A DNA stretch of 35,429 nucleotides, from positions 1 through 35,429 of the forward strand of contig JAEPQF010000025.1 in assembly GCA_017640685.1 (NCBI GenBank), given 5' to 3'. Source of the DNA: Hyphomicrobiales bacterium (GTDB lineage: Bacteria > Pseudomonadota > Alphaproteobacteria > Rhizobiales > HXMU1428-3). A program made the position numbers and the translations under genes. The notes below the pieces were generated by a model. That model saw nothing but the letters and a program-made list of their open reading frames with translations. It was not told the DNA's origin and did no database searches. This document shows, piece after piece, positions 5,355 through 33,905 of this stretch (position 1 is the stretch's first letter; each line of letters begins with the position of its first letter).

Positions 5355-5948
5355 TTGCAAAAGATGGTGTTTCTTCGATCTGCAACATCATTAGATATGG
5401 GGCCTATTTTAACAACAGATAGGTTGATTTTACGTTTGCCGCAACAGGCGGATTTTGCGGAATGGTCCCACTTGCGCGGGCTTAGCAAAGAGGGATTGGT
5501 CCCATATGAGCCGAAATGGGCTGAAAATGAGCTATCTAGAGATAGTTTTCGGCTGCGTTTGCGGTTTTATCAACGTGAATTTCGTGATAGTACTGGGTAT
5601 CCGTTCTTTATTTTTACTAAAGATGGCAATAATCTTTTAGGAGGCATTACCCTTTCAAATGTGAGACGGGGGGTGACGCAATCGGGATCTATTGGCTATT
5701 GGATTGGACTGCCTTTCCAGAAAAATGGGTATATGACTGAAGCGGTTAAGGCGCTTGGGGTTTATGCATTTAAGGAATTGGGATTACATAGGATTGATGC
5801 TGCAAGTTTGCCGGAAAATTCAGCATCTATTCGTGTTCTTGAGAAATGTGGATTTAAAAACGAGGGATTAGCTAGAGAATATTTATGCATAAATGGTCAG
5901 TGGCAAGATCATCTCTTGTTTGGTTGGCTTTTTAGTGATTTACGTTAG
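5355..5948 (+). CDS. GNAT family N-acetyltransferase (RimJ/RimL-like)
   Basis: LTTDRLILRLPQQADF, GSIGYWIGLPFQKNGYMTEAV, LHRIDAASLPENSASIRVLEKCGFKNEGLAREYL. Confidence 0.92.
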   Translation: MQKMVFLRSATSLDMGPILTTDRLILRLPQQADFAEWSHLRGLSKEGLVPYEPKWAENELSRDSFRLRLRFYQREFRDSTGYPFFIFTKDGNNLLGGITLSNVRRGVTQSGSIGYWIGLPFQKNGYMTEAVKALGVYAFKELGLHRIDAASLPENSASIRVLEKCGFKNEGLAREYLCINGQWQDHLLFGWLFSDLR

Positions 5949-6117
5949 ACATAGATTGTTACGTAATAGCGCCGTTTTTAATTGATTTTTTAGTTTACAT
6001 TTTGGGATTCATCTATTTGCCCTATTCCTATGGCATAGTTTTTGATGCCTGTTTGGATGAATTGAGGATTGGTTTGACGCAGATTTGCGCAAAAATAATT
6101 ATTAGGTTGCGGGAAAT

Positions 6118-27285: not shown

Positions 27286-28545
27286 ATGATTTTGGTTTGT
27301 CCAGAATGTTCGACCCATTATGAAATTCCTTCAGCTTTGCCTGAGGGGGGGACGAAAGTGCGCTGTACGAGTTGTACTCATGTTTGGATGGCAACCGCAG
27401 ATGATGTGTTTGAAAATGCCGCTTTGGCTGAAGAAAGTGCTCAAGCTAAAGAGGCTGCTCCAGAAGAGACTGCTTCTAGTTTAGTAGAGGAAGAAGAAGC
27501 TGGTATTCCTGCGATTTCTCCTTTTGACGAAGACCCTTTTGAAGAGCTTGATTTTGAAGAAATTGAGGAAGAAGCTCTGAACGAGACTGAAGAATTAGAT
27601 CAAGCAGAGCTCGATAGTTTGTTTGAAGAGATGGGGGTCGACCCGGAACCTGAGCCTGAGCCCGAACCTGAGCAGGCTGAAGAAAACTCTCAAGGTGATA
27701 TTGATAGCCTATTTGATGAGATGGCTGATGAAGAACCTGAGGATGATAATTCTCAAGATGATATTGATAGTCTCTTTGATGAAGTGGGTGATGATGCTGG
27801 AGAGGAAAACTCTCAGGATGATATTGATGGTTTGTTTGACGAACCTGAGGCGGCTGAGGAAAACTCGCAAGATGATATTGATGGCTTGTTTGATGAGCCA
27901 GCTGCAGATGAGGGAGAAGAAAACTCTCAAGATGATATAGACGGACTTTTTGATGAAGAGCCGGCTGTTTCAGAAGAACCTCAAGCTGAAGAACCACTAG
28001 CTGCAGCAGAAGAAGATGCGGAAGATCCATTTGAGAATGAGACAGTTGAAGTAGAGCTTGATGATGAGCCTGCTGTTGAACCCGAGCCAGTTGCAGCAAA
28101 ATTACCGATTTGGAAAAAACTTAGCCGCAATGAAATGATTGGTTGGGGAGGTTATGCCCTTTCTATTGTTTTGGTTTTTTCCATCATAATCATGGCTCGT
28201 GTTTCCATTGTTAAGGCCATTCCTAGCATGGCGGGTGTCTATGCGGCATTGGGTATGAATGTGAATGTTAGAGGTTTGACCTTTACGAATGTGCAGCAAA
28301 AATGGGTGATCGAAGATAATCGGCTTTTGCTTAAAGTTCGAGGTGAAGTTACCAATTTAACAAATCGCTATAAAACTCTACCTCCTATGGTTTTTGGAGC
28401 TGTTGGGCCAAATAAAAAAGAAATTTTCCGTTGGGTTATGAAGGTTAGAAAAAAACCTCTCTTACCTGGTGAGAAAGCCCCTTTCATGGCGATGGTACCT
28501 TTGCCGCCAGAGCAGGCTCGTCATTTATATATTAGTTTTCAGTAG
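27286..28545 (+). CDS. MJ0042-type zinc-ribbon protein with acidic repeats, one TM segment and a DUF3426-like C-terminus
   Basis: ILVCPECSTHYEIPSALPEGGTKVRCTSCTHVW; acidic repeat region; TM AL(S)IVLVFSIIIMA; C-terminal RGLTFTNVQQKWVIEDNRLLLKVRGEVTNLTN. The track start is 27271. Confidence 0.92.
   Translation: MILVCPECSTHYEIPSALPEGGTKVRCTSCTHVWMATADDVFENAALAEESAQAKEAAPEETASSLVEEEEAGIPAISPFDEDPFEELDFEEIEEEALNETEELDQAELDSLFEEMGVDPEPEPEPEPEQAEENSQGDIDSLFDEMADEEPEDDNSQDDIDSLFDEVGDDAGEENSQDDIDGLFDEPEAAEENSQDDIDGLFDEPAADEGEENSQDDIDGLFDEEPAVSEEPQAEEPLAAAEEDAEDPFENETVEVELDDEPAVEPEPVAAKLPIWKKLSRNEMIGWGGYALSIVLVFSIIIMARVSIVKAIPSMAGVYAALGMNVNVRGLTFTNVQQKWVIEDNRLLLKVRGEVTNLTNRYKTLPPMVFGAVGPNKKEIFRWVMKVRKKPLLPGEKAPFMAMVPLPPEQARHLYISFQ
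27682..27957 (+). repeat. In-frame repeat encoding ENSQ(D/G)DID(S/G)LFDE, five copies
   Basis: Units at 27682-27720, 27745-27783, 27805-27843, 27859-27897 and 27919-27957; degenerate upstream copy DQAELDSLFEE at about 27598-27630. Confidence 0.95.
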
Positions 28546-28552
28546 TTTTCTC

Positions 28553-28642
28553 TCACTTTTTAGCGCTCCTTCGGTTGCCTCTATTGCGCTCTAGATGCCC
28601 ACAAAGCAACCGCGCTAAGGCAACCTTCGTTGTTACCTACAG
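28553..28642 (+). repeat. Stem-loop repeat cluster F (degenerate)
   Basis: CTTTTTAGCGCTCCTTCGGTTGCC...GATGCCCACAAAGCAACCGCGC...GCAACCTTCGTTGTTACCTACAG aligns to cluster D. Confidence 0.75.
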
Positions 28643-28852: not shown

Positions 28853-29257
28853 ATGGCTCGGATATTAATTGCTGAAGATGACTTTGCGGTGAGGGATTTT
28901 ACTTACCGTGCTCTTTCTATGAGTAATCATGATGTGGTGGTCGCTCATGAGGGGCAAGAGGCGCTTCGTTGTTTAACTGTGCCAGATGAGAGTTACGATC
29001 TTGTGATTAGTGATATTCGGATGCCAGTTATTGATGGGGTAACTTTGGCGAAGTTGATTTTTAAACAACAGCCTCATTTGCCAATTTTATTGATGACTGG
29101 GTATTCAACTGCAGAAGAAGCTGATTATGCACCGTCTGTTGTTGGTGTTTTGCAAAAGCCGTTTACTCTTGAGATGATGAGACAGGCTGTGCAATCTGCT
29201 TTGGGACAATCACGACAAAAACCTAGGGAAAAGCAACTTAAGCTTGGATTGCGTTAA
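28853..29257 (+). CDS. Single-domain response regulator, CpdR/CheY-like
   Basis: MARILIAEDDFAVRDF, LVISDIRMPVIDGV (phospho-Asp), LLMTGYS, VLQKPF; no output domain. Confidence 0.93.
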   Translation: MARILIAEDDFAVRDFTYRALSMSNHDVVVAHEGQEALRCLTVPDESYDLVISDIRMPVIDGVTLAKLIFKQQPHLPILLMTGYSTAEEADYAPSVVGVLQKPFTLEMMRQAVQSALGQSRQKPREKQLKLGLR

Positions 29258-33691: not shown

Positions 33692-33905
33692 TAAGTGCTC
33701 CTTCAGTTGCCATTTTTGTGCTTCGGTTGCCCACCAGCAACCGCAACATTGTGCTTCAGCTGTTCACATGGCATCCGCACTAGCAACCGTTTTTTTTAAT
33801 TGGCCTTCAGTTGCCATTTCTTTGCTTCAGATGCCCACAAGGCATCCGCAACGGCAACCGGCCTTTTTTAGTTGGCCTTTAGGTTGCCCACAAGCAACCG
33901 GCCCA
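33692..33905 (+). repeat. Stem-loop repeat cluster G (four hairpins, largest array)
   Basis: GGTTGC-CCACCA-GCAACC (33725-33742), degenerate GCTGT-TCACATG-GCATC (about 33759-33775), GATGC-CCACAAG-GCATC (33830-33846), GGTTGC-CCACAA-GCAACC (33882-33899). Confidence 0.85.

Follow-up and report, generated by a model that had tools for sequence, protein, structure and literature searches.

A ZitP-like protein of a Hyphomicrobiales bacterium carries a tandem array of FliM-like motifs that may dock CheY at the cell pole

The zinc-ribbon membrane protein encoded at 27286-28545 raises the question why a peptide familiar from the flagellar switch should be repeated in the middle of its chain and which protein would read it. 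LSQxEIDxLL is the established CheY-binding motif of the FliM N-terminus, CheY is also the ligand of the C-terminal motif of CheZ, and both proteins usually bear the motif once and close to a terminus. Based on the comparison presented here, we assume with a probability of about two thirds that we are dealing with a polar organiser of the ZitP type, in which the linker array docks CheY at the pole. The relevant features of the window, which is the whole analysed stretch of 35,429 nucleotides, are the following:

27286..28545 (+), zitP-like gene, 419 aa plus stop: zinc ribbon, acidic linker, transmembrane helix and C-terminal domain
27286..27393 (+), MJ0042/Zn_ribbon_4 zinc ribbon, aa 1-36: Cys5, 8, 27 and 30; profile matches
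27598..27630 (+), motif 1, degenerate, DQAELDSLFEE, aa 105-115: predicted helix
27685..27720 (+), motif 2, NSQGDIDSLFDE
27748..27783 (+), motif 3, NSQDDIDSLFDE
27808..27843 (+), motif 4, NSQDDIDGLFDE
27862..27897 (+), motif 5, NSQDDIDGLFDE
27922..27957 (+), motif 6, NSQDDIDGLFDE
28126..28218 (+), predicted transmembrane helix, aa 281-311: AlphaFold2 helix, hydrophobic sequence GWGGYALSIVLVFSIIIMA
28261..28539 (+), C-terminal beta-rich domain, aa 326-418: occupies the position of the ZitP DUF3426 domain, without Pfam match
28853..29257 (+), CpdR-like single-domain response regulator: without the CheY/FliM docking face

The coding part of the open reading frame (27286-28542, (+) strand) specifies 419 aa, and profile searches confirmed that the zinc ribbon seen in the initial annotation is real (Zn_ribbon_4, E 4.8e-12; TIGR02098, E 4.9e-10). 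AlphaFold2 places a single transmembrane helix (281-311) between ribbon and C-terminal domain, and the linker, which is acidic and predicted to be disordered, has mostly low confidence in the model. The C-terminal domain gave no Pfam DUF3426 match at E <= 1, and in a fold search with the whole AlphaFold model nothing passed E <= 0.001, the sole returns being weak ones to ApaG-like beta-sandwiches. Kinship to GltJ, a zinc ribbon of the gliding machinery, was considered and rejected, as the match is weak, confined to the ribbon and far under the cut-off.

We filed the protein as ZitP-like because of its match to 2nb9, its status as the sole MJ0042 protein of the genome, two conserved residues, the presence of a PopZ gene and the synteny with a distant genus. 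The only PDB match was 2nb9, a 49-aa zinc ribbon (E 1.8e-4), which we take to be Caulobacter ZitP, because its Cys5, Cys8, Cys28, Cys31, Trp35, Arg24 and Arg27 fit the residues described for that protein (PMC5182065). In Caulobacter, Trp35 and the basic residues R24 and R27 of ZitP are needed for PopZ binding (PMC5182065). The alignment to 2nb9 revealed that the PopZ-binding Trp35 is kept as Trp34 and Arg27 as Arg26, while the position of Arg24 is occupied by Thr23 with Lys24 adjoining. The PopZ gene was found at G000:C185:14481-14603 (PF10691, E 1.2e-10). Furthermore, the gene order plsC, ftsX, ftsE, zitP-like, cpdR-like is common to the window and the distant genus g70, which differs by one additional gene adjoining plsC; the names plsC, ftsX and ftsE were given on the basis of the sequences. 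The assignment as putative ZitP ortholog is based on zinc ribbon, architecture and synteny, the C-terminal domain being without a DUF3426 match.

All six motifs noticed in the initial annotation lie in frame in the acidic linker between ribbon and transmembrane helix, and consist of DQAELDSLF followed by five copies of NSQ(D/G)DID(S/G)LFDE. Motif 1 starts 29 aa ahead of motif 2, and the five NSQ copies are spaced by 21, 20, 18 and 20 aa. Five of the six copies have the core Q-x-[DE]-I-D-x-L-[LF] with its critical Ile-Asp pair, motif 1 having Leu instead of Ile. TRF detected the 60-bp array independently at 27682-27957. Between the copies in the window pS is 0.783 and pN is 0.050 (pN/pS ~0.06), so that synonymous sites are near saturation and the peptides almost fixed. 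A divergence of 78% at synonymous versus 5% at non-synonymous sites means that the peptide has been kept and not the DNA repeat, as had been supposed from the letters alone, and shows that selection acts on the array peptide. Elsewhere in the window, TRF also listed a 71-bp imperfect tandem repeat at 33752-33888, and a similar-looking ATGCCCACAA word occurs in the intergenic region downstream of the zitP-like gene (~28560-28630); the two are perhaps an interspersed repeat.

To which proteins of the same organism the peptide belongs was analyzed by scanning the 3.5-Mb genome with Q-x-[DE]-I-D-x-L-[LF] back-translated to a degenerate DNA pattern. This strict pattern yielded nine matches, five of them in the array, and none in the reversed control. 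The four matches outside the array are FliM, the C-termini of two CheZ proteins and the C-terminus of a 187-aa protein. In detail, FliM carries NQDEIDNLL near its N-terminus (reading ERILNQDEIDNLLG), and the two CheZ end with NQADIDALFD and SQNDIDNLF at the very C-terminus. A relaxed pattern (I/L/V/M) added the DQAELDSLF copy and four more matches, two of which read as unrelated proteins, at one match in the reversed control. Genus relatives have CheZ proteins with the C-terminus (S/N)QDDIDALFD, the ending given for CheZ of the genus being (S/N)Q(D/A)DIDALFD, and the repeat is therefore close to the genus's own CheY-binding tail. The 187-aa protein, which has no known family (G000:C201:1765-2328 (+), locus L043), ends with VQNEIDALFD like a CheZ tail and is possibly a further CheY-binding protein. 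The CheZ proteins of some other alphaproteobacteria (L138, L307, L308, L310, L332) bear two or three tail motif copies, not one.

Motif conservation and copy number in orthologs, proposed in the initial annotation as a check, spoke for the array: 4-6 copies are kept in each of the seven genus members (counting that of the window) for which the gene was detected, and the other six proteins share 52-83% identity with the window protein. MAGs under the labels Methyloligella, Rhodomicrobium and Hyphomicrobiales/Hyphomicrobiaceae are the nearest records with a name. Separate arrays in ZitP-like proteins were found in genome G057 (5x DQ(S/N/D)(S/D/A)IDDMF), in five genomes of genus g70 (SQDDIDALF-type, x5-9) and in a Cohaesibacteraceae MAG (x5), with a spacing of mostly 18-22 aa. 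Across 13 arrays tested, pN/pS ranged from 0.00 to 0.15, again with high synonymous divergence and a nearly fixed peptide. In a FliM tree that took in the window's clade and G057, the arrays of g70 and the MAG being absent from it, well-supported branches put these two on opposite sides, and at least two changes are therefore needed. The nearest lineages on this tree (G018, G009, G039) have no motif in ZitP, as far as the protein of G039, seen partially, extends.

When the tandem motif or the window protein served as query, the PopZ proteins of G019 and G049 also came up, and a census revealed that PopZ of many families has 1-4 motif copies in the linker after the N-terminal helix (SQDDLDALF x2-3, SQDDLDKLF, SQDDIDALL, GQDDIDAML, STDDVDALF x4 and others). 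Compared with residue shuffles, strict motifs are enriched in ZitP-like proteins (40 observed versus 0.01 expected, in 8/48 proteins including the seven genus members) as well as in PopZ (10 versus 0.03, in 8/51 proteins). In the window genus the motif sits in ZitP and none of the four PopZ sequences that were read contains it, whereas the majority of the other families with the motif bear it in PopZ and not in ZitP; genus g70 has it in both. As the motif occurs in PopZ itself in other families, it belongs to the hub and not to one protein. The PopZ of the window genus (G000:C185, locus L079) has ~566 aa and a long Gln/Met-rich linker, compared with the usual acidic form of 200-270 aa.

A further line of evidence comes from the distribution of flagellar genes. 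With one genome per alphaproteobacterial family, a motif in ZitP or PopZ was found in 10 of 33 FliM-positive and 0 of 19 FliM-negative families (Fisher p 0.006), and a looser motif in 12/33 versus 0/19 (p 0.0017), the families being counted as if independent, although this holds for them just partially, and some genomes having yielded just one of ZitP and PopZ. The 19 FliM-negative families without the motif include some that retain ZitP and PopZ. As 21-23 of the 33 FliM-positive families are without the motif in either hub protein and the genus's own PopZ also lacks it, the function is optional. Searches for tandem motifs in three overlapping sets of 199 (order), 386 (class) and 399 (phylum) genomes returned only ZitP and PopZ proteins, tails of CheZ and single examples of an EAL phosphodiesterase and a CheY-like receiver, the classes being assigned via signature residues and reading and FliM bearing the motif singly; all of them have to do with chemotaxis, the cell pole or signalling by c-di-GMP/receivers. 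The EAL-domain membrane phosphodiesterase (G031, L047:3267-5312 (-)) has four SQ(D/G)DVDA(L/M)F motifs in its C-terminal tail and is a candidate for CheY-linked c-di-GMP turnover. The CheY-like receiver (G137, L249:4708-5454 (+)) has a tail with four SQDDIDNMF and thus combines receiver and docking peptides on one chain; the open reading frame directly after it (5467-6024) may encode an Hpt protein.

Which receiver would be bound was to be checked, according to the initial annotation, with the neighbour at 28853-29257 and with genomic CheY/Cle proteins. The best NCBIfam equivalog of the neighbour is CpdR, under its cut-off, and the docking face of CheY is missing: Tyr106 is replaced by Val, Val108 by Gln and Lys119 by Ala, and alpha4 is two residues shorter. 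The genome has one canonical CheY (C201:9313-9693), which adjoins a CheZ and matches solved E. coli-type CheY structures with 143.8 bits (E 2e-41); 1f4v, 2fka and relatives among them are complexes with FliM and CheZ peptides. This CheY keeps Lys91, Tyr106, Val108 and Lys119, with Ile95 changed to Val (E. coli numbering), and the next receiver of the genome is just 34% identical to it. Because canonical CheY retains the docking face and the CpdR-like neighbour has Val106, Gln108 and Ala119, CheY is the likelier ligand, and the partner of the motifs is likely the protein at C201:9313-9693. The claim of FliM-like CheY docking gained strong comparative support from the genome's own FliM and CheZ, the seven orthologs, the recurrence in PopZ and ZitP and the link with FliM, but the neighbouring receiver is probably not the partner.

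Nevertheless, the motifs might dock the adjacent CpdR-like receiver, in which case the array would recruit the ClpXP adaptor system to the pole instead of a chemotaxis protein. In Caulobacter, CpdR is a response regulator with polar localization (PMC5182063), and zitP and cpdR adjoin here and in the distant genus g70. We regard this as quite improbable, since the residues of the docking face are changed, the other carriers of the motif are FliM and CheZ, and families without FliM are without the motif even when ZitP and PopZ are retained. An unlikely, but in our opinion less strained, alternative is a non-canonical CheY-like receiver, for example of the Cle type that responds to c-di-GMP, in which case the array would couple the pole to c-di-GMP or to a different signal. 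The FliM peptide is also a ligand of Cle receivers: the Caulobacter peptide ERILNQDEIDSLLG binds the CheY-like CleD, and when its Ile-Asp is changed, both CleA binding and motor reversals are lost (PMC5677366). Furthermore, at E <= 1e-8 another 20 receiver matches occur in the genome, one of which lies in a 125-aa open frame at C164:52375, and in other genomes an EAL phosphodiesterase and a receiver protein bear such tails. Against this, canonical CheY is far nearer to the peptide-binding structures, the next receiver being just 34% identical to this CheY, and the CheZ C-terminal motif with its known ligand CheY has nearly the same sequence.

An acidic, disordered linker with variable copy number could also have grown by slippage into a low-complexity tract that binds nothing specifically, and PopZ linkers are acidic in general. 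Pure slippage repeats are, however, ruled out by the pN/pS of the 13 arrays, and the excess of strict motifs over the shuffled expectation in both ZitP and PopZ, together with near-identical cores that arose separately and only alongside FliM, makes an array without ligand highly improbable. A shared motif names no reader, and another, unrelated polar or flagellar protein could read it in the array as well as at the termini of FliM and CheZ; the motif at the end of the 187-aa protein at C201:1765-2328 would fit this. We give very little credence to such a reader, as we know of none for the FliM/CheZ peptide besides receivers of the CheY family.

Therefore, we favour the docking of CheY by a ZitP-like organiser. 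The cytoplasmic zinc ribbon, judged from known families, would bind PopZ at the cell pole and the transmembrane helix would anchor the protein in the inner membrane, while the long, acidic, disordered linker seems to have become an array of 5-6 motifs equivalent to the CheY-binding peptides of FliM and CheZ. Each copy would form a short helix that lies on the alpha4-beta5-alpha5 surface of CheY, as in the known families, and CheY-P is probably the bound form. In this way, the array could retain CheY at the pole, where chemoreceptor arrays, CheZ and possible polar flagellar motors are close by, and compete with FliM and CheZ for it; buffering or relay of CheY near polar motors with an effect on reversals is conceivable. 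In other alphaproteobacterial families, motifs in PopZ itself may take the same role. The best explanation for the whole distribution seems to be that the PopZ-ZitP hub repeatedly gained multivalent CheY docking sites. That the alphaproteobacterial hub repeatedly became a multivalent CheY sponge or relay, by which the polarity machinery captures CheY and shapes its route to the motor, we hold to be slightly favoured by the balance of evidence. The motifs suggest that the cell pole itself may bind CheY, as a direct link between polarity and the control of swimming.

PopZ and ZitP have been studied as cell-cycle and pole organisers, and a CheY-docking array on either of them would, if true, be a direct molecular link from polarity to chemotaxis. 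To our knowledge, PopZ and ZitP of Caulobacter have no such arrays, and the same mechanism therefore need not act there. In Caulobacter, loss of zitP impairs swarming, a fliG switch mutation suppresses this defect, and the way in which ZitP promotes swarming is stated as unexplained (PMC5182063), and in Magnetospirillum loss of PopZ impairs magneto-aerotaxis (PMC6414705). The ZitP papers (PMC5182065, PMC5182063) mention neither CheY nor chemotaxis, and searches of open-licence papers returned no report of a link between CheY and PopZ/ZitP or of FliM-like motifs in them.

In comparison with Caulobacter crescentus ZitP (PMC5182065, PMC5182063), the window protein has the same N-terminal MJ0042-type ribbon with its four Cys and a Trp in the PopZ-binding position, a cytoplasmic linker, one transmembrane helix, a C-terminal domain and a PopZ in the genome, but its linker comprises ~240 instead of ~70 aa and bears the 5-6 FliM-like motifs, and its C-terminal domain is without Pfam match. 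The PopZ (DUF2497) linkers of other alphaproteobacterial families are similar in being acidic, in belonging to a polar hub protein and in carrying 1-4 copies of the same motif, with a spacing of ~20 aa in the measured tandem cases, although PopZ is a self-assembling scaffold and ZitP its membrane-anchored partner. The FliM N-terminal peptide (LSQxEIDxLL) has the core SQ-x-[DE]-I-D-x-L-[LF] in common with the array, whereas FliM is a part of the motor with one copy near the N-terminus and the array has 5-6 internal copies in a membrane protein; the last motif position is Leu in FliM and Phe (LF) in the array, and Phe is also found in CheZ of the genus. CheZ is a phosphatase with one C-terminal copy here and several in some other genomes, but the tail of the genus CheZ equals the ZitP repeat almost letter for letter. 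The CheY-binding peptide of the FliM/CheZ type is usually single and near a terminus in these proteins, whereas the motif of the window protein is internal and tandem.
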